The position numbers and the translations under genes were made by a program. From NCBI GenBank assembly GCA_017640785.1, contig JAEPPZ010000007.1, positions 1 to 64,000 of the forward strand: a DNA stretch of 64,000 nt, in the 5' to 3' direction. Positions within the stretch are counted from its first letter, which is position 1. Each line of letters starts with the position of its first letter. The DNA comes from Balneola sp. Lineage in GTDB: Bacteria; Bacteroidota; Rhodothermia; Balneolales; Balneolaceae. The notes beneath the pieces are model-generated. The model was not told where the DNA came from and ran no database searches. It worked only from the letters and a program-made list of their open reading frames with translations. Positions 22,845-33,610 of this stretch are shown here, one piece after another.

Positions 22845-23078
22845 TTATCCTTTATTCTGCCCCCTTTTGTTTTTATTACGTAGGGTCGAATCGAGATTCG
22901 CCCCTACGATTGGGTTTTTAATAAAAATTTCGATGATCCCATGGATATGATTTGGCATAACTACGAATGCATCCAATCGAACATTATCCCAAATTAATTC
23001 GGTTTTAAACCATTCATTATGCTCAACCACCCCGCATTCATTCATGCGTATTTCACCGTTGTTCATGTTTCCAAACAA
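22845..23078 (-). pseudogene. Decayed REP-associated transposase (RAYT) fragment
   Basis: A 77-codon frame that carries the core of a Y1/RAYT transposase (GEIRMNECGVVEHNEW and AFVVMPNHIHGIIEI, the latter with the HUH-type metal-binding His pair) but lacks the N-terminal strand and the whole C-terminal half with the catalytic Tyr. Its last part (IVGANLDSTLR) is a translated REP palindrome (22879-22908). It lies 34 bases behind the complete RAYT gene, so it is either an older copy or one half of a tandem pair. Confidence 0.7.
22879..22908. repeat. REP palindrome A
   Basis: A 30-base palindrome: CGTAGGG, one mismatch, CGAATC, GA, GATTCG, one mismatch, CCCTACG. It shares the GGGGCGAATC core with palindromes B and C around the RAYT gene and lies inside the decayed RAYT frame. 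Confidence 0.85.
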
Positions 23079-23112
23079 ATATTCATTTCCGACAACGAAT
23101 CAGATTCTGTAA

Positions 23113-23679
23113 TTACCTGTTTCGATAAAACCGATCTTTATTCCAATTCTTCGGATTGTTTTTGATGTATTCCCGTATGTAAAACAACGATTCTTCATTT
23201 CGGATGATGTGATCATAATAATTGCGTTGCCAGATTTTGGTCCCTGGTGTTTTACGGATTAGGTTGATTTGTTTTGCGGTATTCATTTTATACCAACCAA
23301 TAATTTTTGGAATCAACATTTTACGACGGTGATTACGATATAATTCCGGGTTTGCGTTCCTTTGTAGGGGCGATTCATGAATCGCCCCTACAAAGGGGAT
23401 TGTATTAACAATTTCAATGATAACATGAATATGATTAGGCATAACAATATGTTCATGAATAATGGTATTTGGGTATCTGGTGTCAATTTGTTTCAAATAA
23501 TCTGATGCAACCACCCCACATTCATTCATATGCATTTCACCATTGATCACATCTCCGAATAAACATTCTTTTTGGTTGGTACAAATGGTGATGAAATAAA
23601 ATCCCGGCGTGGAATAATCGTATCCCTGCAAACGCATGGATTGTCGGTTTGGCAATTTCTTCTGCTTCATCATACACAA
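23113..23679 (-). CDS. REP-associated tyrosine transposase (RAYT, IS200-like)
   Basis: A 188-aa single-strand transposase of the Y1 HUH family. The N-terminus RLQGYDYSTPGFYFITICTNQKECLFG, the His motif HIVMPNHIHVIIEI and the C-terminal WYKMNTAKQIN and IWQRNYYDHIIRNEESLFYIREYI with catalytic Tyr candidates are all as in RAYTs. These proteins cut at REP hairpins and are usually single-copy and domesticated. A perfect REP palindrome lies inside the gene (bases 23359-23396) and is translated as FVGAIHESPLQR between the two halves of the protein. The start of the frame may be M3 or M4 rather than M1. Confidence 0.92.
   Translation of the reverse strand: MCMMKQKKLPNRQSMRLQGYDYSTPGFYFITICTNQKECLFGDVINGEMHMNECGVVASDYLKQIDTRYPNTIIHEHIVMPNHIHVIIEIVNTIPFVGAIHESPLQRNANPELYRNHRRKMLIPKIIGWYKMNTAKQINLIRKTPGTKIWQRNYYDHIIRNEESLFYIREYIKNNPKNWNKDRFYRNR
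23359..23396. repeat. REP palindrome B within the RAYT gene
   Basis: A perfect 38-base palindrome with half-site CCTTTGTAGGGGCGATTCA. It is in frame with the transposase and has not disrupted it. It is the best preserved of the three REP palindromes here. Confidence 0.95.
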
Positions 23680-23764
23680 TTAGACAGGTTGAGGCCGGAT
23701 TCCTTACAAAAAATATCCACGAGGTTTTTCCAGGTGTGTTTTGCGGATGATTTATTGGGTTTGT

Positions 23765-23806
23765 ATTCCATGTGGGGGCGAATCGCGATTCCCCCCCACA
23801 TGGAAT
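23765..23806. repeat. REP palindrome C upstream of the RAYT gene
   Basis: A 42-base palindrome with half-site ATTCCATGTGGGGGCGAATC and one mismatch (G to C in the right arm). It stands 86 bases upstream of the RAYT start on the minus strand and has a different outer sequence from palindromes A and B while keeping the GGGGCGAATC core. Confidence 0.9.
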
Positions 23807-23907: not shown

Positions 23908-25215
23908 ATGATCCGATATTTATTTGTTCTCCTGATCTTCGTTTCCGCTTGTGCTCCTGATAATAAACCACCCATCGAATGGGGTGAATCACCCTGGCCG
24001 GAAATTCGAAAGGAACGCATAAATATCTTGTTGCCACAAGCCATGGAAGCAGCGGATGTTGATCTTTGGATCGTGATCTGCAGAGAAAACAATAACGACC
24101 CGATCGCTGATCACATCGGGGGAGAAAATGCAGGAGGAACGGCGGCATTTCTGTTTTACCGAGACAGCGAAGGTTTTCATTCCAAGGTATTTTCGCCATC
24201 AGGAGAATCCACGGCGCTGGATGAATTAGGCATTCACGACGAAGTGATTCCGATTGAAAGAGGGAAGTCGGCAGTAAGTATGGCGGTGGACTTTATCAAA
24301 GAAAAAGACTTTAAAACGATCGCTATAAATTCAAGTAACGGCAGCGCTCAGGCAGATGGATTGAGCTACACTCAACGAATGAATCTGGAAAACCAACTTG
24401 GTTCCGTATTTAGTGAACGATTGGTTTCCTCAGATGAACTGATCTATGAATGGCTGTCGATCAAGTTGCCGGCGGAAGTAGAGATCCTAAGAAAAGCAGC
24501 TGAACTGACGGCGGCATGGGAGCTGGAAGCCTACGAAATGATAGAACCGGGCGTGACGACCGATGCGGATGTAGCCGCTTTTCTGGATGCAAAGATGGAA
24601 GAATACGGAGTGGGCGAAGCGTGGAACCCAACCCAAAATCCGAATGTGAATTCCGGACCGGATCGTGGTCATTCTCATGCGACCGATAAAGTAATTATGG
24701 ACGGTGATGTAATTCAGACCGATTTCGGGATCAAATTATATGGTCGCTGGGTGAGTGATATCCAACGGTTTGCATATGTTCTGAAAGAGGGAGAAACCGA
24801 AGCTCCTGAAGACATTCAGTTCTATTGGGAATCTGCCAAAGCCGGAAACAGAGCCGCTTTCAATGCCATGAAGCCGGGAGCAAAAGGAGTGGAAGTAGAC
24901 GCCGCACAACGAGTGTTGATGAAAGAAAACAATTCCGAATATGTACCGTGGAGCACAGGACATCCGGTAGGATATGTAGCTCATGATGTGGGACCAAATC
25001 TGGGTGGTTCGCAGTCGCCGAGTATACGTCCGGCGGCACAAAAAGTCTTAAAAGAAGGAATGGTCTTCGCATTCGACGGCTTCCATGCCTGGACATTAGA
25101 AAAAGGTGGAGCTAAAACGATCAGCGTGGAAGAAATGGCAGTTATCACCGAAAACGGTGCAAGATTTTTGATCGCACCGCAGGAGGAGTTGGTTTTGGTG
25201 GGAGGTAAAAGGTAA
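23908..25215 (+). CDS. M24-family Xaa-Pro peptidase-like lipoprotein
   Basis: A 435-aa protein with a lipoprotein signal (MIRYLFVLLIFVSAC, lipid anchor Cys15), so it acts at the envelope. An N-terminal creatinase-like domain (about residues 25-165) is followed by a pita-bread M24 domain: metal ligands in IQTDFGIKLYGRW, the His in GHPVGYVAHDVGP, and the late Glu in FDGFHAWTLEKGGAKTISVEEM. The family includes prolidases and aminopeptidase P; one or more metal ligands differ from the textbook set, so activity is not certain. Pieces closely similar to its last ~100 bases recur at 26587-26672 and 27927-28025. Confidence 0.9.
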   Translation: MIRYLFVLLIFVSACAPDNKPPIEWGESPWPEIRKERINILLPQAMEAADVDLWIVICRENNNDPIADHIGGENAGGTAAFLFYRDSEGFHSKVFSPSGESTALDELGIHDEVIPIERGKSAVSMAVDFIKEKDFKTIAINSSNGSAQADGLSYTQRMNLENQLGSVFSERLVSSDELIYEWLSIKLPAEVEILRKAAELTAAWELEAYEMIEPGVTTDADVAAFLDAKMEEYGVGEAWNPTQNPNVNSGPDRGHSHATDKVIMDGDVIQTDFGIKLYGRWVSDIQRFAYVLKEGETEAPEDIQFYWESAKAGNRAAFNAMKPGAKGVEVDAAQRVLMKENNSEYVPWSTGHPVGYVAHDVGPNLGGSQSPSIRPAAQKVLKEGMVFAFDGFHAWTLEKGGAKTISVEEMAVITENGARFLIAPQEELVLVGGKR

Positions 25216-25222
25216 CGTTCAA

Positions 25223-26428
25223 TCAGATACTTCCCGCCGGATATAAATCAGGGAAATAATAGCCAACTACTTTAGCCGGAATATGAAATCGTATAGGAGC
25301 TTTATGTGAATCAGAAACCACCAATTCCTCCTCCAGCAGTTGTTTAATAAGAGCTGTTGCGGATCGTTCTCCTAATCCAATTAAACGGGGAACTTCACCA
25401 CGGGCTATTTCTCCGCGCATCATTACTTCAGCTAACACATACGTTGCTTCCTCCCGCAGTGGTTTTTCATCCGGAAGCATATTATCTGCGCGCATGGCAA
25501 CATAGCCTTTTATACGATTGTAAAGAGCTTCCAATGCCAGTAATTTCTTCAGATATGAAATTTGATCGTCAGCCACTTTAAACAGAAAAGTAGTAAACCC
25601 GGTGAGTGCTCGTTCCGACAGGTTGCCACGGCCATCATAATCTCCTTCTCGTTCACTATCTGCGCTGGCTAACATATTCTTATAATTCTCTGTTTTTCTG
25701 GCTAATCCTCTGGAGAGGGTCCAAAGCCCATGAGATGCTATGCCGGCCTTTCGCATAAAAGCATAAGTAAATAAGCGGGTAACCCGTCCGTTGCCATCTA
25801 AAAAAGGATGGATCCATGCTAATCGATGATGACTTGCCGCAGCTACGATCAGTTTTTTATGTCCCAGTACAGAATCGGATGTGTAGGCCTCTTCAAAATG
25901 TTTAAGAAAGCGCGGCACACTCTCCCATGTTGGAGCTATATGAGAGCCAACACTTACATTTTCCCTCCTTAACTCACCCGGAACCATAGTTATGATTGTG
26001 TTTTTGTCCGGATGTTTGATTGCTAAAAAAGATTCAGGAACACGCTCATAAAACTCTTTATGTATCCAACAGATAAACTCAGTGGAACACACATTAATGT
26101 CTTCATTTTCCTCAAAGCGATCATCTATTAATTTTTGAACTTCAATATGAGCCCGGCTTAACAGTTGCAGGCGTTTTTTTTCTTCGTCTTTGTTGTATTC
26201 TTCTTTTACTGCTTTCTCAATATCCGCCGGAGTTGTGGATTCCCCTTCTATCAGGTTAGAATAATAACTGTTGATATGCCGAAGTAAGCGCGCAATTTCT
26301 TTTCTCGTTATTGGATGAACCATTCCACCGAGCTCAGCAGCTTCCGCATACACCTTCATTGATAGATCCACAAGAGCTTTTTCTTCTTTTGGAAATAAGG
26401 GTTCCATTTGTGTTGGGCGGTTATACAT
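25223..26428 (-). CDS. Fic family protein 1
   Basis: A 401-aa Fic-domain protein that probably transfers AMP (or another nucleotide part) to a target. The active-site loop is complete: HPFLDGNGRVTR (near residue 206), with catalytic His and the phosphate-binding NGR. An upstream SNLIEG matches the inhibitory helix motif [S/T]xxxE[G/N], so it is self-inhibited (class II type). The C-terminus looks like a winged helix (GLGERSATALIKQLLEEELV). It is the first gene of the accessory island and runs opposite to the M24 gene, tail to tail with a 7-base gap. A pair of direct repeats stands upstream of its start. Confidence 0.93.
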   Translation of the reverse strand: MYNRPTQMEPLFPKEEKALVDLSMKVYAEAAELGGMVHPITRKEIARLLRHINSYYSNLIEGESTTPADIEKAVKEEYNKDEEKKRLQLLSRAHIEVQKLIDDRFEENEDINVCSTEFICWIHKEFYERVPESFLAIKHPDKNTIITMVPGELRRENVSVGSHIAPTWESVPRFLKHFEEAYTSDSVLGHKKLIVAAASHHRLAWIHPFLDGNGRVTRLFTYAFMRKAGIASHGLWTLSRGLARKTENYKNMLASADSEREGDYDGRGNLSERALTGFTTFLFKVADDQISYLKKLLALEALYNRIKGYVAMRADNMLPDEKPLREEATYVLAEVMMRGEIARGEVPRLIGLGERSATALIKQLLEEELVVSDSHKAPIRFHIPAKVVGYYFPDLYPAGSI

Positions 26429-26439
26429 CGCTACTATTA

Positions 26440-26548
26440 TGCGGGTTAAATTACGAGTTTAAAATTTGTCGTAAATATATATAAGACAGTATAATATCTT
26501 CTTTATTAATGAATAATAAAAGATAAATTTTGCGGGTTATATTGCGAG
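26440..26548 (-). promoter_or_regulatory. Direct-repeat operator candidate of Fic 1
   Basis: TGCGGGTTAAATTACGAG (26440-26457) and TGCGGGTTATATTGCGAG (26531-26548) agree at 16 of 18 positions and stand upstream of Fic 1 in an AT-rich stretch. They could be operators bound by the winged-helix tail of the Fic protein; this is an inference. Confidence 0.45.
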
Positions 26549-26586
26549 ATGCTTTACCGGTTAAAGCTCAGTAATTATCTTTGGAT

Positions 26587-26672
26587 GGAAGAGGAAAGAA
26601 ATGGTGGTGATCACCGAAAACGGTGCGGAGTATTTGATGGCTCCGCAGGAGGGGTTGGTATTGGTGGAGTGA
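26587..26672 (+). pseudogene. Remnant of an M24 peptidase 3' end, copy 2
   Basis: The frame reads EMVVITENGAEYLMAPQEGL before VLVE and a TGA stop, close to the end of the intact M24 protein (EEMAVITENGARFLIAPQEEL). No upstream part of the gene is present. It is not identical to the intact gene, which suggests it came from a diverged homologue. Confidence 0.85.
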
Positions 26673-26747
26673 GGTATCACATAGATAGTTAATTTGTGTC
26701 TCACTCATGCAACGAAAGATCTTTTGTGTTGCATATTTATTTGTTTT

Positions 26748-26790
26748 TGATACACAAACTGTTTAACGTCTTATAAGTGATACACAAACT
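26748..26790 (+). promoter_or_regulatory. Direct-repeat operator candidate of Fic 2
   Basis: TGATACACAAACT occurs twice, at 26748-26760 and 26778-26790, 30 bases (three helical turns) apart; a related inverted half-site (TTTGTGTCTCA) is near 26695. They stand just upstream of the Fic 2 start and probably form an operator or promoter-control array. A further dyad with TGCAAC arms is at about 26707-26733. Confidence 0.5.
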
Positions 26791-26807
26791 TCTTTAGGAA
26801 ATAAAGC

Positions 26808-27899
26808 GTGAAACCATTTATTCCACACGACTTACCCATTAAAAATCTGGATTGGCAAAAATTCCAACGGATTTTAGGCCCTGCGAACAGAGCTATTGCC
26901 AGATATGATGGTTTATTACAATCCATTCCAAATCCTGCTGTTCTATTATCACCATTAACTACACAAGAAGCGGTACTATCATCCAAAATTGAAGGCACTC
27001 AAGCTACTTTAGAAGAAGTATTAAAGTTTGAAGCAGATCCAAACAGAGAAACAGAACATTATCAGGATATTCGGGAAATAATAAACTACAGAAAGGCAAT
27101 GGCGTTTGCAGTAGCAGAGCTTGAAGAGCGCCCAATGAGCCTGAACTTATTGAAAAGAATGCATTCAATATTGTTGGATAGTGTGCGTGGTGAAAACAAA
27201 TCCAGAGGTGCATTCAGGAACATACAAAACTGGATAGGAAAGCCGGGTACAGCCATAGAAGAAGCGCGATATGTGCCACCGTCACCATTAAAATTAATGG
27301 AAAACCTTGACGCGTATGAAAAATACCTGCATGCTGAAGATGATGATGCCTTAGTACAAGTGGCAATAATACATGCACAGTTTGAGATCATACATCCTTT
27401 TTTAGATGGAAACGGAAGAATTGGAAGAATTTTAGTGCCACTATACCTTCATTCTAAAAATATTCTTCACCAGCCAATGTTTTATATAAGTGCTTATCTG
27501 GAAAAGCACAGAGATGAATACTATGATCACTTAAAAGCTATTAGTGATGATGGTAACTGGGAAGAATGGATACAGTTCTTTTTAAAAGCCATTGATACAC
27601 AAGCCAGGGCAAATACAGAAGAAGCACGAAGTATTCTTAACCTTTATGAACAAATGAAGCAAAAGGTTGTTGAAAGCACACATTCTCAGTATGCACTTCA
27701 GTCATTAGATGGTATTTTTACTGCACCTATTTTTTCATCTTCGGAATTCAAGAGATTTACAGGAATACCTAAAGCAAGCAGTGCACGGATTTTAAGCACT
27801 TTAAGAGATGAAGGGATCATCTCTATTTTAGAAGAAGCCAGCGGGCGTAAACCGGCAGTATATATATTCAGGGAGCTTATTGATATTGTAAATCAGTAG
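26808..27899 (+). CDS. Fic family protein 2
   Basis: A 363-aa Fic protein with a Fic_N domain. The inhibitory motif SSKIEG lies near residue 62 and the complete active site HPFLDGNGRIGR near residue 198, so the enzyme should be catalytically able and class II self-inhibited. A C-terminal winged helix (IPKASSARILSTLRDEGIISI) suggests DNA binding. It is only distantly related to Fic 1, so the two were acquired separately and are not a duplication. It is framed by two remnants of M24 3' ends, and it has its own pair of upstream repeats. Confidence 0.94.
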   Translation: MKPFIPHDLPIKNLDWQKFQRILGPANRAIARYDGLLQSIPNPAVLLSPLTTQEAVLSSKIEGTQATLEEVLKFEADPNRETEHYQDIREIINYRKAMAFAVAELEERPMSLNLLKRMHSILLDSVRGENKSRGAFRNIQNWIGKPGTAIEEARYVPPSPLKLMENLDAYEKYLHAEDDDALVQVAIIHAQFEIIHPFLDGNGRIGRILVPLYLHSKNILHQPMFYISAYLEKHRDEYYDHLKAISDDGNWEEWIQFFLKAIDTQARANTEEARSILNLYEQMKQKVVESTHSQYALQSLDGIFTAPIFSSSEFKRFTGIPKASSARILSTLRDEGIISILEEASGRKPAVYIFRELIDIVNQ

Positions 27900-27926
27900 A
27901 ACCCCGGGTTGATTAACTTAAGCAAT

Positions 27927-28025
27927 GCTAAAACGATCAGCGTGGAAGAAATGGTGGTAATTACCGAAAACGGCGCGGAGTATTTGATCGCCCCGCAGGA
28001 GGAGCTGGTTTTGGTTGGAAACTAG
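27927..28025 (+). pseudogene. Remnant of an M24 peptidase 3' end, copy 3
   Basis: The frame AKTISVEEMVVITENGAEYL, then IAPQEELVLVGN and a TAG, corresponds to the last ~33 codons of the intact M24 gene. Its first 28 bases are identical to the intact gene (25111-25138), then substitutions appear that mostly keep the protein sequence. It stands directly after Fic 2 and before the ParB-like gene. Confidence 0.88.
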
Positions 28026-28105
28026 GATCAGAACTAACTGAAAACAGTTTATAAGTTAAGTAGGGTATTTATTAAATTATTAACAATGATATAAATGTAT
28101 ATATA

Positions 28106-29200
28106 ATGAGTCCTGAAGAAGATAAAAGCATAGTTAGACTAGATCTAGATAAATTAAGATTTGATCCTGAGAATCCTCGGTTACCATATAATAATCATTC
28201 TGACTCTGAAGAAGAAATTCTGACTTGGATGCTTGATAATGGTTCAATTTTGGAGCTTATGGGATCTATTATTGAAAATGGCTTTTTCCCTGGTGAACCT
28301 CTTTTAGTATATCAACCAGAAGGAAAAAATTTTTATGAAGTAATTGAAGGCAATAGGCGCTTAGCAGCTTTAAAACTACTAAATGATCCAGCTTCTGCAC
28401 CAATTAAGAAGAATTCTATATTAGCTATACATCGTGAAAAACATAATTCAGTTGATCAAGTACCAGTAATTATTTTTACGAAACGTGATCATGTACTTGA
28501 CTATTTAGGATATAGACATATTACTGGAATAAAGGAATGGGATCCCCTACAAAAGGCGGGATATCTTGATCAGTTATTTAAAAAAGAAAGTGATGATCTT
28601 ACAACAGATGAAAAGTATTACATACTTGCAAAAAAAATTGGAAGTACTCGTGAATATGTAGGTCGATTACTTACTGGGCTAAGCATAATAAATAAATTAA
28701 GCGAAGAAGATTTTTATGAAACGGGTATATCCGATGAATCTGATATTAGTTTCTCAATACTTACTACAGCGTTATCCAATCCGGCATATGTAAGGTTTTT
28801 AAATATTTCAAGTAAAACTGACAGAACTTTAAAGGATCTCGACGAGAACAATTTAGAAGAATTGATCTCTTGGATGTTTAAAAAAGGACCGGATGGAAAA
28901 ACAAGACTTAAGGAATCAAGAAATTTGTCAAAACTAGGTAAAGTACTTGACAACGATGAAGCATTGGAATCATTTAGGGAGGGCGCAACAATAGAAGAAG
29001 CAATTCTAATGACTGATGAGCCCGACAATATATTTTTGAGCTCTTTAATGAGTACAAAAAACGAACTAATTCATGCAAAATCTTATACTCATTTACTGAA
29101 TAATCCTGATTACGGACATATCATTGAGCTAATTAAATCAATAAAAAATTTAATCAATGAGTTAGAATCTATCATTAAAGGCAAAGAATCAGGGGAATAA
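28106..29200 (+). CDS. ParB/Srx-fold N-terminal domain protein
   Basis: A 364-aa protein with an N-terminal ParB/sulfiredoxin-like domain (about residues 10-130): LDLDKLRFDPENPR opens it, LMGSIIENGFFPGEPLLVY follows, and EGNRRLAALKLL (81-92) is the nucleotide-binding ParB motif II variant. The region after residue 150 is helical (EYVGRLLTGLSIINKL, like a helix-turn-helix) and the C-terminus is a long helix. It lacks the companion ParA and the DNA is very AT-rich, so this is not chromosome segregation. It is followed after 2 bases by a nuclease-like gene and is probably co-transcribed with it. Role unknown; a CTP- or ATP-switched DNA-bound partner of the nuclease is one hypothesis. Confidence 0.85.
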   Translation: MSPEEDKSIVRLDLDKLRFDPENPRLPYNNHSDSEEEILTWMLDNGSILELMGSIIENGFFPGEPLLVYQPEGKNFYEVIEGNRRLAALKLLNDPASAPIKKNSILAIHREKHNSVDQVPVIIFTKRDHVLDYLGYRHITGIKEWDPLQKAGYLDQLFKKESDDLTTDEKYYILAKKIGSTREYVGRLLTGLSIINKLSEEDFYETGISDESDISFSILTTALSNPAYVRFLNISSKTDRTLKDLDENNLEELISWMFKKGPDGKTRLKESRNLSKLGKVLDNDEALESFREGATIEEAILMTDEPDNIFLSSLMSTKNELIHAKSYTHLLNNPDYGHIIELIKSIKNLINELESIIKGKESGE

Positions 29201-29202
29201 TT

Positions 29203-30177
29203 TTGTCAGTGAATATAGATTTTGAACCAGATATAGTTATAGAAGATGATTTTGCGATTGTTGATTTAGTTGAAATACTTTGTTTGACTAATTTAGATAA
29301 CAGTATAACAAGAAGTGATTTTTTAAATAGATATTTAAAATTAAAAGAAAGAAAATCAGTCAGCGAAAAAAATACAAGCGGATCTAAAGAACATTCCGAA
29401 ATCTCTGATAATGATTTTACTTATTCAGAAGATATTTTTAACCAACTTGAGTATAGAATAAGGCTTTACGAAGATTATTACCCGTTCAATTATGACGAGT
29501 CAAATGAAAGACTAACTGTTAAAGAGAGGTCTGTAAAAGGAGACCTGTATATTTTTTTCTTGCTCTGTGTATATCACAACTGTTTCGATGACTCAACGGA
29601 TAGAAAATTAGATGGGAAATTCGAAGAAATTTCTAAGATTGTTTTAGAGAGTTATTTAAGTAAAAATGCTGAGATACATTTATTTGGAAAAAATTCTACA
29701 CATGGTGGAAAGTTTACTCAAATCAATAAACTAAAAGAGAGGATTGTCGCATTAGCAGAGAGTTTAGATGAAGAGCCGATACTTAAAAGAATAGATGGAT
29801 TAAAAGAAACTGATACAGGAGACGGAGGGGTGGATATTGTCGCGTGGCTTCCATTTGAAGATGGAAATTATCCAGTTCCAGTTTTTCTATGCCAATGTAC
29901 AATAGGGAAAGATTGGATACGAGGTAAACATCTTGAATCTTCAGTAATTAATTTTAATTATATTGCTTTTACAGGGATTCCGTATAGTATGTTATGTATA
30001 CCACATTTATTTAGAAATTCAGAAAACAAGTGGTACAGTGATTATAGAATGGGTAGTTTTATATTAATAGATAGACACAGGTCTATGAGCCTGCTAAAAA
30101 ATTTAGACAAAATTAAGGTTGAATATAAGGAATTTGTAGATTTTATAGTTGATTACTCAGAAAAACCAATAGGGTGA
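29203..30177 (+). CDS. Putative PD-(D/E)XK-like nuclease partnered with ParB-like protein
   Basis: A 324-aa protein I cannot assign to a named family. Near the end it has GDGGVDIVAWLPFEDG (206-221) and FLCQCTIGKDW (228-238); a GxDxVD strand followed by Q-C-x(3)-K on the next strand is the layout of Mrr-like PD-(D/E)XK restriction nucleases, with D211, Q231 and K236 as candidate catalytic residues. The first 200 residues are acidic and helical with no motif I know. Start is TTG at 29203 or GTG at 29209, 2 to 8 bases after the ParB-like gene. It is convergent with the methyltransferase (25-base gap). Membership in a defence cassette is inference from motif and neighbours. Confidence 0.75.
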   Translation: MSVNIDFEPDIVIEDDFAIVDLVEILCLTNLDNSITRSDFLNRYLKLKERKSVSEKNTSGSKEHSEISDNDFTYSEDIFNQLEYRIRLYEDYYPFNYDESNERLTVKERSVKGDLYIFFLLCVYHNCFDDSTDRKLDGKFEEISKIVLESYLSKNAEIHLFGKNSTHGGKFTQINKLKERIVALAESLDEEPILKRIDGLKETDTGDGGVDIVAWLPFEDGNYPVPVFLCQCTIGKDWIRGKHLESSVINFNYIAFTGIPYSMLCIPHLFRNSENKWYSDYRMGSFILIDRHRSMSLLKNLDKIKVEYKEFVDFIVDYSEKPIG

Positions 30178-30202
30178 AATTTATAACCTATCTAATCCAT
30201 AA

Positions 30203-31252
30203 TTAATCAGCGAAGGGAGCTAGGTCAGCTTGCTTTTCAGGTATAGAATTACTGCTATCTATTTTTTCTTTTCCTTCAATAATAGATTTGATATGCTTTG
30301 CTAAATAGAATGCAAAATTAACAGGAACAGCGTTCCCAATCATTTTATATCCGGCAGCTACGCTTTGATATTTAAAAATAAAGTCATCCGGAAAAGTCTG
30401 TATTCTAGCACATTCTCTTACTGAAAGCCTTCTATAAAGATGTTCGTGACCTTCAACAAATATTCGTTTGTTTTTTCCTATTTTCTCCATTACGGGTGCT
30501 TGTGGATGAATCGGTGCGTGTCTTCCACCAGCTTGAATAGTAAATGATTGCTCATCCCACTCTCGTACCCGATTTCTAGACATATACATCGAAGAAAATC
30601 CACCTGTCATGTATTCATGATTATGAATAATGCACTCTTGATCATTTGTCTTGTTCTTTTCTTTTGCTGGGAGTGCGGTATCTTTTAAGTCCCAGATCGC
30701 ATCTTTTAGGGTTTTTGTATAATTGAGCTTTTTAGGAAAGCTTGGTAGTAAGTTCAAATTATTACGAAACCCTAAGAAAATCACCCTCTTTCTATCTTGT
30801 GAGACATTGTAGTTTTTAGCATTTAATAATTTGTAATCAGTTACATAACCAGCTCCTTGAAATAATTGGAGTATATTTTCTAGAGCTTCACTATGGCGTT
30901 TATGTAACATTCCAGAAACGTTTTCTGCTAAGAAAAACTTAGGTTGTTTATCCTTTAAAACACGAATAAATTCATGAAATAGTTTTCCTCTATTATCATT
31001 TATCCCTTTTTGAGAACCCGCTTCACTCCAGCTTTGGCAAGGGGGACCACCAATAATTCCATCGCACTCCGGTATTTCACTTGAAGGAACTTTAATAATA
31101 CTTCTAGTATCTAAATCTGTATTCTTGTGATTATAGTGATATGTATCCCAGATCTGTTTGTCATATTCATTTGCCCAAACAACATTGTATCCGGCATTTC
31201 TAAAACCCAAGTCTAATCCACCAGCACCAGAAAACAACGAAACTATATCCAT
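30203..31252 (-). CDS. DNA (cytosine-5)-methyltransferase, M.HaeIII-like
   Basis: A 349-aa m5C methyltransferase with the motifs in canonical order: I ([13 protein letters not shown], 5-17), IV ([12 protein letters not shown] with catalytic Cys72), VI (AENVSG), VIII ([11 protein letters not shown]), IX ([15 protein letters not shown]) and X ([19 protein letters not shown]). The whole sequence, including the target-recognition stretch ([30 protein letters not shown]), is close to M.HaeIII as I remember it, so GGCC is the predicted target. It is divergent from the C protein and endonuclease genes and forms a type II R-M system with them. Confidence 0.95.
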
Positions 31253-31298
31253 AAATTTTTTTTAAAGTTAATGCAAAAAAGAGTTGTATTCAAACCAT

Positions 31299-31335
31299 TA
31301 TGTAGACAGTAGTCCGTTGTACTAAAGTCTACATA
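31299..31335 (+). promoter_or_regulatory. C-box operator of the R-M system
   Basis: A 37-base dyad with perfect 9-base arms TATGTAGAC and GTCTACATA. Inside it are two smaller dyads, GAC-AGTA-GTC (left) and ACT-AA-AGT (right), as in the two-operator C-boxes bound by controller proteins. It ends 1 base before the C protein ATG at 31337, so the C-R transcript may be leaderless. The methyltransferase gene starts 46 bases to its left. Confidence 0.8.
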
Positions 31336-31336
31336 A

Positions 31337-31561
31337 ATGCAACTTAATTTAATGAATGTGAATGAATTTTTTGGAGCTAAAATTAAAGAAGAAAGACTGA
31401 AACGCAGACTTTCTCAAGAGCAACTTGCGCTTAAGGCAAATATAGATAGGACATATATTTCAGATATAGAAAGAGGGGAGAGAAAGGTCTCATTAGGAAT
31501 AGCTTACAAGCTATCTAATGCCCTAGATATTAAGCTCTATAAGTTATTAAGAGATTTATAG
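31337..31561 (+). CDS. Restriction-modification controller (C) protein, XRE family
   Basis: A helix-turn-helix protein of 74 aa (or 69 aa from the ATG at 31352, MNVNEFFG). The XRE fold is clear: FGAKIKEERLKRRLSQEQLA, then NIDRTYISDIERGERKVSLG, which is typical of C proteins that delay endonuclease expression until DNA is methylated. The C-box lies directly in front and the endonuclease gene 59 bases behind on the same strand. The autoregulatory role is inferred from this classical layout. Confidence 0.93.
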   Translation: MQLNLMNVNEFFGAKIKEERLKRRLSQEQLALKANIDRTYISDIERGERKVSLGIAYKLSNALDIKLYKLLRDL

Positions 31562-31620
31562 CTAGTAACCTATCATTGCAAGATGAATCATTTGCTTAAA
31601 AATTTAAAATAAGGAATTTC

Positions 31621-32535
31621 ATGGGGAGTAAATCGGACTCAGCTGGAAAGCTACATCAATACTATACCGCTATTTATTTAAAAGAGAAATCAAATAAAGC
31701 AACAGTAAGCTCTCCACTAGATGACATTGCTCATAGATCGAGTCACTTTAATAAATTTAGTAGCAAACCTGAGGATATAAAACCTCTTAAAAAGATAGGG
31801 TTGTTGTCCGCAGATCTCATCCAAAAAATTGTAGATGATGATATTATACATATTGACGATATAGGAGTTGGTTCTGGGGCAAGCAGCCATGATATTACAG
31901 ATGATCTAGTTATTAAAACAAAGAATAAAGGTGAAATTGGCTTTTCTCTAAAGTGTTCTAAAAATATTGGACAAATATTGTCTAAAAATATGGGAGCTAA
32001 AAGTCTTTTAGAACAATATTTTGGAGCTCCAAATGAACAAATACAGTTCAATACATATTTAGATGCAGCTCATTTAGAGTTTTTAAACAAGGCTCTTTTA
32101 AACCCTCTAGATACCATTCCGACTGCAAAAAAAGCTATCAAAAAGGACGTTAAATCGAACAAAAGAGACAAGGCTAGATTCGCTGATAAAAATTATTTTC
32201 ATATGAATGAGGCAAGAACCAAGTTTTTAGAGGGATTGAGAGACAAACTTTTCACCCTTCTTAATAATTTAAAGAATGCACAGCTAGCGAAGGCATGTAA
32301 CTTGATTCTAGATACTGGGAAGAACCATATACTTGCCGAATATAAAGTTAATGAAGAAAAGGTAGAATATATTTCGATTAACAAAAAAAACGAATCAGAT
32401 ATACAATCAATACATAAAAGAGGCAATGACTCCGTAGTTATTAACTCAGGTGATTATTCTATTGGGTTTCGTTTTAAATTTGAAAGCGGTATTACTAGCT
32501 CCATAAAACTAGTGGGAGATTACAAGAAAAATTAA
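31621..32535 (+). CDS. Type II restriction endonuclease (by context and motif)
   Basis: A 304-aa protein, not assigned by me to a named endonuclease family. DITDDLVIKTKNKGEIGFSL with KCSKN (91-115) fits a PD-(D/E)XK core, where D95 and an S-L-K (109-111) take the usual place of (D/E)XK, as in HaeIII-type enzymes that carry S-x-K. Following SKNMGAKSLLEQYFGAP and a helical DNA-binding middle are unusual. Position behind the C protein and opposite an M.HaeIII-like methyltransferase makes it the cognate endonuclease; predicted cutting at GGCC comes from the methyltransferase. AT-rich, in keeping with transfer. Confidence 0.8.
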   Translation: MGSKSDSAGKLHQYYTAIYLKEKSNKATVSSPLDDIAHRSSHFNKFSSKPEDIKPLKKIGLLSADLIQKIVDDDIIHIDDIGVGSGASSHDITDDLVIKTKNKGEIGFSLKCSKNIGQILSKNMGAKSLLEQYFGAPNEQIQFNTYLDAAHLEFLNKALLNPLDTIPTAKKAIKKDVKSNKRDKARFADKNYFHMNEARTKFLEGLRDKLFTLLNNLKNAQLAKACNLILDTGKNHILAEYKVNEEKVEYISINKKNESDIQSIHKRGNDSVVINSGDYSIGFRFKFESGITSSIKLVGDYKKN

Positions 32536-32584
32536 ATTATAGTGTTCAGTTTAAAAAAGTTATTAGAACACAGTTTATTTGCAA

Positions 32585-33610
32585 TCAACCCACCAAAATC
32601 ACCTTCCCAATATTTCTCCGTTCTTCGATGTAGTGGTGGGCTTCGCCGGCTTCTTCGAGGGAAAAGGTTTTGTCTACATGCGGTCGAACCCAGCCGGTTT
32701 CAACGCCATCCAGAATAGCTTTCATCCATAAAGCTGCTTTATCGGATTCATGCCACAGATGACCTAGATTCACACCGTACACGCCACGGTTTTTATCCAG
32801 CAGAGAAAGCGGTTTAAAGGTGGGCATTTTCAGTACCGTTTTTATGAGTTCGAACTTGGCTCTCAATCCACCGGAGGAATTTATACTGGCTACCGAAATT
32901 CCAAACATTCCCAACCGACCGGTAGAGCGAAGAGCTCTGTAGCTTTTCTTCCATTCGTCGCCGCCTAAAGGGTCGGTGATCAGTTCCACACCACGTTTAT
33001 CGGTGAGCTTCATGAGTTCATCGAACCAATCTTTGTTTCTATAATCGATGGGATGATCCAGTCCTCGTTCTTTCAGGAATTCATGCTTGCGCTCGCTTGC
33101 CGTTCCGTAAGTTGTGGCGCCAATGTGTTTGGCAATATCCAGCTGAGCTAATCCAACGCCACCGCCGGCATTGTGAATGAGTACAGATTCTTCTTTTTGG
33201 AGTCCGCCCATGGCTACCAACAACGCCCAAGCGGTTAAATAGGTAACCGGAATGGAAGCGGCTTCTTCAAAAGAAAGCGAAGCCGGTTTTTCATACACTT
33301 GTTTTTCTTTCAGCACTACTTGTTCTGCCTGACCTTTAAATCGGCATAAACCGATCACTTCTTTGCCGATCCAGCTTTTGTCAATTTCCGAACCAACTTC
33401 TGTAACGATTCCCGCTACTTCATAACCCATCACACACGGCGTTTTTGGTCCGTCGGGGTATTGTCCCTTCCGGGCGAGGATATCTGCGAAATTCAATCCG
33501 GATGCTTTTACCTGAATGAGGAGTTCGTCTTTGTTTGGAGTCAGGTCAGGCACTTCCTGAACCTGAAGGACATCATAACTTCCGGTTTTGGTATAAACGA
33601 GTTGGCGCAT
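32585..33610 (-). CDS. Zinc-type alcohol dehydrogenase-like / quinone oxidoreductase (MDR family)
   Basis: A 341-aa NADPH-dependent oxidoreductase. Seen: GroES-like N-domain (VKASGLNFADILARKGQYP, CVMGYEVAGIVTEVG) and a Rossmann domain with LIHNAGGGVGLAQLDIAKHI. The structural and catalytic zinc ligands of true alcohol dehydrogenases are absent, so it belongs to the quinone oxidoreductase/VAT1-like branch. It marks the return to ordinary chromosomal sequence after the island. The ATG follows an AT-rich leader; no operon partner. Confidence 0.9.
   Translation of the reverse strand: MRQLVYTKTGSYDVLQVQEVPDLTPNKDELLIQVKASGLNFADILARKGQYPDGPKTPCVMGYEVAGIVTEVGSEIDKSWIGKEVIGLCRFKGQAEQVVLKEKQVYEKPASLSFEEAASIPVTYLTAWALLVAMGGLQKEESVLIHNAGGGVGLAQLDIAKHIGATTYGTASERKHEFLKERGLDHPIDYRNKDWFDELMKLTDKRGVELITDPLGGDEWKKSYRALRSTGRLGMFGISVASINSSGGLRAKFELIKTVLKMPTFKPLSLLDKNRGVYGVNLGHLWHESDKAALWMKAILDGVETGWVRPHVDKTFSLEEAGEAHHYIEERRNIGKVILVG

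Follow-up and report, generated by a model that had tools for sequence, protein, structure and literature searches.

PD-lambda-5 is a validated anti-phage system of E. coli prophages (PADLOC PD-Lambda-5_A and PD-Lambda-5_B) that its discoverers described as a compact 'RM+Abi' system, and the same work gives the name P2 defence hotspot #1 to the interval bounded by the portal gene and replication gene A (PMC9519451). HEPN genes occur in operons with ParB and methylase genes (PMC3710099), an arrangement that fits PD-lambda-5 and not the pair of genes considered here, which encode a ParB-like protein and a putative partner nuclease, X. The accessible part of PMC10853773 lists other nucleases at the restriction position of Dnd systems, the ParB-X pair not being among them, and neither this part nor that of PMC12839542 links the pair directly to DndFGH, BREX or the named Dnd nucleases. 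A term search of a survey of ParB folds (PMC12704722) yielded no description of the pair. PADLOC, Pfam, NCBIfam and the papers found hold no name for X or the pair; subscription papers and preprints lay mostly outside this search, so that a name may exist. The initial annotation had proposed an undescribed pair, which holds for the libraries and papers searched but not for the ParB part, as PD-Lambda-5_A is a known relative.

The window, i.e. the whole stretch of 64,000 nt of Balneola sp. DNA that was analysed, contains the following features:

27927-28019, + strand: degenerate copy of an M24 peptidase gene's 3' end, marking the upstream edge of the module
28106-29200, + strand: ParB-like gene (364 aa, ATG start; ORF call)
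28346-28360, + strand: nucleotide-box motif E81-G-N-R84-R85 of the ParB-like protein (R85 invariant, R84 in 98%)
29203-30177, + strand: gene of X, the putative partner nuclease (324 aa, TTG start; ORF call)
29833-29835, + strand: D211 of X, invariant, predicted metal ligand
29893-29895, + strand: Q231 of X, invariant, predicted active site
29926-29928, + strand: K242 of X, invariant, predicted catalytic lysine
30203-31252, - strand: C5-cytosine DNA methylase, proposed modification partner (M.HaeIII homologue, 1dct, 2e-134)
31621-32535, + strand: type II restriction endonuclease (REase)-like protein (PDLC03444, 4.6e-18), divergent from the methylase

The genes of the pair lie 2 nt apart on the same strand and are AT-rich, GC dropping from ~0.40 to 0.31, so that the two ORFs are found as initially described. 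Along its entire length the ParB-like protein matches phrog_3694 (5e-98), and X matches phrog_3984 (3e-34), both labelled 'unknown function', and because both proteins match phrog families the pair was taken as genuine and not as a product of chance. The reported lack of ParA was confirmed by a Pfam scan of the six island genes and, by eye, for the other ORFs of 20-42 kb. Of the features of a ParABS partition system, the ParB NTPase fold with a CTP-type motif is thus present in the model and the neighbouring ParA gene absent.

The model of the ParB-like protein (pLDDT 93.7, pTM 0.87, from a 90-row alignment) predicts a ParB/Srx NTPase fold, a KorB/Noc-like helical DNA-binding region and C-terminal helices. 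KorB (8qa9) was a structural match with a Z of 10.6 over 201 aligned residues, and Noc and CTP-bound ParB matched as well, which upholds the ParB/Srx domain first read from the sequence; residues 81-92 are EGNRRLAALKLL. Residues ~10-160 match PD-Lambda-5_A in PADLOC (3e-26). Searches against the PDB with phmmer returned only noise for either protein. The PADLOC model PDC-M38A also matched the ParB-like protein, most of its other matches being to its second half; this identity was dropped, as the frames matched by that half encode AAA/OLD-like ATPases instead of X.

X was modelled with similar quality (pLDDT 90.8, pTM 0.90, 90-row alignment) and is predicted to consist of an N-terminal winged helix (~12-126) and a C-terminal PD-(D/E)XK-like domain (~110-300). 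Residues 12-126 resemble the FOXN1 wing or winged helix (Z 4.7), and the top structural rows are mostly PD-(D/E)XK nucleases, the best being MspJI (Z 7.3, 151 residues), with FokI (Z 6.3), BspD6I, EcoT38I, NgoMIV, Shedu, BsaWI and SdaI as further rows. Foldseek gave no match below 0.001. Since these Z values are moderate, the fold call leans on the agreement among rows and on the invariance of D211, Q231 and K242. The structure check therefore agrees with the proposed PD-(D/E)XK fold in the sense of 'PD-(D/E)XK-like'. In all 90 relatives R85, Y116, D211, Q231, K242, R291 and R293 are invariant, and D21 and E24 are kept in 98%. The motif GDGGVDIVAW occupies residues 206-215 and QC-x(3)-K residues 231-236; of the latter, which the initial annotation had singled out, Q231 stands as invariant but K236 varies among the relatives, so that the catalytic lysine is most likely K242, judged by conservation. 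An Mrr-like core is not supported, and X was rejected as an Mrr-like type IV nuclease: Pfam gives no match, to the Mrr family or otherwise, and the Q-x-K motif is absent, the residues after Q231 being C-T and the lysine kept in all relatives being K242. Nothing in Pfam or NCBIfam reached a curated cut-off with X, and PADLOC gave no match at all.

The distribution of the pair was surveyed in 80 bacterial and 80 viral loci, plus phage and plasmid records, using alignment-based scans; single-protein scans of viral contigs had given no matches, and alignments were needed. X directly followed ParB on the same strand in 168 of 170 loci, so the adjacency that had been proposed holds across genomes. 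A C5 methylase lay within 400 nt of the pair in 122 of 160 loci (75/80 viral, 47/80 genome), and within 5 kb in a further 2 viral and 7 genome loci. The five viral loci without a close C5 gene comprise two with C5 at less than 5 kb, two that end at the contig end and one without a full pair. With 0-10 C5 genes per genome (11 genomes checked), this adjacency is far above chance. Usually, the methylase is convergent and lies 0-10 nt after X. Other modification genes take this role in a minority of loci: dndCDE lies directly upstream of the pair in five genome loci (L029, L037, L057, L067, L072) and by eye in L069, with DndE confirmed by Pfam, and a D12 N6-adenine methylase adjoins the pair in L008 and L205 as well as, in a form truncated by the end of the locus, in L178 and L179. 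About 11 of the 80 genome loci have room for a modification gene and none within 5 kb; most of their genomes encode C5 methylases elsewhere. A quick ParB tree, in which L007 and L180 carry a long-branch warning, places the D12 pairs in a single minor clade, the only one with this methylase, and requires two or more switches among the three partner types.

A free-standing cassette of two genes, as first envisaged, is consequently not what was found: a DNA-modification gene accompanies the pair, in the window the methylase convergent with X at 25 nt. The defence setting inferred from a neighbouring restriction-modification (R-M) system holds, but the methylase that had been taken for a neighbour is central. 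One locus (L073, 5284-9038) has a full GmrSD protein whose end overlaps the ParB gene start, with a dndC-like gene 3 kb away. In another (L182, 123-3479), a stop codon breaks X and leaves ParB and the C5 methylase open, which is as expected if a restriction arm decays first.

The divergence of the three genes was compared across 96 non-redundant loci. Distances correlated closely between ParB and X (r = 0.91) and poorly between ParB and methylase (0.32), and median identities were 35% for ParB, 25% for X and 61% for the methylase. R-M systems normally show this contrast, the methylase being conserved and the restriction enzyme divergent. The same was evident from two E. coli P2-prophage alleles, 33.8% identical in ParB, 25.6% in X and 97.8% in the methylase. 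The triad was present in 139 of 5,426 complete E. coli genomes (2.6%; 103 with one allele and 36 with the other), and no E. coli genome was found to carry the methylase without the pair. In P2-like prophages the triad is flanked by the portal gene and replication gene A, and in P2-like phages the pair alone stands beside the methylase, with no other REase. Methylase specificity was considered as a trait that follows the pair, but pairs only ~30% alike adjoin near-identical methylases, and the idea was discarded.

The similarity of the window methylase to M.HaeIII spans its full length including the target-recognition region (1dct, residues 1-324), and because the homology runs end to end its predicted specificity is GGCC. 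Together with the divergent REase it forms a complete HaeIII-like R-M unit (30203-32535), and this REase is the ordinary restriction partner of the methylase and lies outside the core pair; its family is rare, with members in 2 of 394 genomes of the phylum, and lacks a Pfam model. A unit with the same divergent REase (53% identical) and a methylase 63-65% identical, without the ParB-X pair, was found in genome G088, and its methylase is the nearest relative found of the window methylase, compared with 50-52% for pair-linked ones. Four Bacteroidota-type pairs with methylases of the same clade at 50-52% (L012, L016, L018, L022) lack that REase. The window thus appears to combine two GGCC-type systems around one methylase, which probably serves both the ParB-X pair and the REase. 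A second case of the pair beside a complete R-M system is L017 (5868-9091), where a NaeI REase (3.7e-104) lies directly upstream of the pair and a C5 methylase nearby. As the window methylase is nearer to the pair-free unit and has its own REase, and given L017 with NaeI, the pair could be an add-on to complete R-M systems.

The surroundings of the pair are variable. Three copies of the M24 peptidase gene's 3' end are present, one behind each inserted module (25111-25203, 26577-26669 and 27927-28019), which looks like repeated insertion at the end of this gene, with no integrase visible. The repeats recur in two genomes of the same genus (G159, G038), where different cargo follows them, and a third (G026) has a single copy. 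Same-genus genomes with the same flanks carry a DUF3427 helicase with HNH, RhuM, a C5 methylase or a Schlafen-type helicase, and because such other cargo lies between the same flanking genes the site is, on comparative gene content, an exchange hotspot. It lies between the peptidase and a quinone oxidoreductase gene (25215-32585), and the corresponding loci of relatives (L230-L234) hold RhuM, Fic, DUF3427 helicase/PLD, HNH, NUDIX, or a C5 methylase with a Vsr-like gene. Genome G061, in which no close peptidase copy was found, has such defence genes on the far side of the oxidoreductase. Further upstream (22880-23800), a small transposase-like ORF (23113-23679) flanked by palindromes resembles a RAYT/REP element.

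I consider that the ParB-X pair probably forms, with the methylase, a three-gene R-M system in which it is the restriction arm. This is based on the gene pairing, the folds, the conserved putative active site, the association with modification genes and the faster divergence of the pair relative to the methylase. As in type II-like R-M, the methylase gene is linked and a nuclease-fold subunit has a conserved putative active site. From these observations I infer cleavage that depends on a missing mark, gating by NTP and a subunit that reads sequence: the methylase (in the window 30203-31252, predicted GGCC) would mark self DNA, the ParB-like subunit would bind NTP and DNA and, with X, sense unmarked DNA, and X would cut such DNA via its PD-(D/E)XK-like domain. 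Against a restriction arm count the moderate fold matches of X (best Z 7.3), the ~11 of 80 genome loci without a modification gene within 5 kb, the signs in the window and L017 that the pair could be an add-on, and the fact that one arm would have to serve GGCC, D12 and phosphorothioate marks alike. Tentatively, the ParB NTP switch may act as a licensing subunit, with one module working on 5-methylcytosine, D12 N6-methyladenine and phosphorothioate self-marks; if so, the three marks imply that a missing or disturbed mark is read via the partner's site or complex and not as one fixed modified base.

The same evidence bears on other readings. The pair may be a suicide (abortive-infection) guard on R-M that remains silent as long as the methylase is active and, once a phage blocks or overwhelms modification, cuts DNA and so kills the cell; the 'RM+Abi' label of PD-lambda-5, its closest ParB relative (PMC9519451), and the presence of the pair in the window and L017 next to R-M with its own REase point this way, but no other REase lies beside the P2-like phage methylase, only the pair, and the partner domain of PD-lambda-5 is an unrelated C-terminal domain and not a PD-(D/E)XK nuclease, so that a guard seems rather unlikely. 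A type IV-like enzyme cutting modified invader DNA (5mC, 6mA, phosphorothioate) would agree with MspJI, which is modification-dependent, as the best structural match of X, and with the action of the ParB-fold proteins GmrSD/BrxU and SspE on modified DNA (PMC10952713). Such an enzyme would, however, adjoin the very enzymes that put those marks on the cell's own genome, and in X a winged helix but no SRA-like domain was seen, which makes this reading very improbable.

Hardly credible is a role in partition or prophage maintenance, in which an orphan ParB, assisted by a protein that processes DNA, would adjoin methylases merely through shared variable loci. The true ParB fold and the frequency of the pair in prophages would suit it, but the neighbourhood has no ParA, the position is specific (most loci have the methylase at 0-10 nt from X), the pair evolves fast beside a conserved methylase, and chromosomal copies adjoin dnd genes.

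The restriction-arm reading concerns a widespread system, found in many phyla, in P2-like phages and in 2.6% of complete E. coli genomes, whose triad is currently annotated as 'ParB domain protein, hypothetical protein, methylase'. Should it be true, ParB-type NTP switches license restriction too, and a pair beside which 5mC, D12 methylation and phosphorothioation replace one another would be a means of asking how the absence of a mark is recognised by a restriction enzyme. The Wphi prophage of E. coli W, a laboratory strain, offers a ready test case for the triad.

Compared with known systems, the pair shares with PD-lambda-5 a homologous ParB domain (hhalign 99.9%, 222 columns), an adjoining methylase, the P2-like prophage setting and, in some pairs, a D12 methylase like PD-Lambda-5_B (L205). 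In contrast, PD-Lambda-5_A is a single protein, the C-terminal part of which bears no relation to X (hhalign 0.2%) and closes with a conserved histidine region, HEPN-like by eye, and its methylase is D12 (at loci matching PD-Lambda-5_A, the adjacent D12 methylase is PADLOC PD-Lambda-5_B, 2e-118), whereas ParB-X pairs usually have a C5 methylase and keep ParB and nuclease as separate proteins. Membership was therefore rejected, as the ParB domain is shared but a homologous fused C-terminal domain is missing and the window methylase is C5 and not D12; on sequence comparison, the pair is a cousin of PD-lambda-5 and not a member. One genome (G138) holds a hybrid locus in which a D12 methylase, ParB and X (L205, 465-3407) converge on a PD-Lambda-5_A gene (L194, 1480-2967), a ParB-X pair and PD-Lambda-5_A thus lying around one methylase.

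GmrSD, BrxU and SspE (DUF262) likewise couple a ParB/Srx-type NTPase domain to a nuclease, with the motif DGQQR as against EGNRR in the ParB-like protein, but theirs is an HNH/DUF1524 nuclease on the same chain, modification-dependent and without a partner methylase. Membership of GmrSD was rejected, since Pfam GmrSD_N scored 14.9 bits on the ParB-like protein against a cut-off of 33.2 and the fold of X differs from DUF1524/HNH. The minority of pairs directly downstream of dndCDE occupy the place of the Dnd nucleases, as do the Dnd restriction modules (DndFGH, wHTH-SRA-HNH, DndI), to which no sequence relation was found. Among solved structures MspJI comes closest in fold to the nuclease domain of X, but it cuts 5mC DNA as a single chain, whereas X is paired obligately with ParB and carries a winged helix at its N-terminus. 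With the type II systems HaeIII and BspRI (GGCC), finally, the window shares an M.HaeIII homologue, a compact layout of methylase and nuclease, and a fast-evolving restriction arm, unlike them in that the proposed ParB-X arm consists of two proteins, one of them a ParB NTPase.
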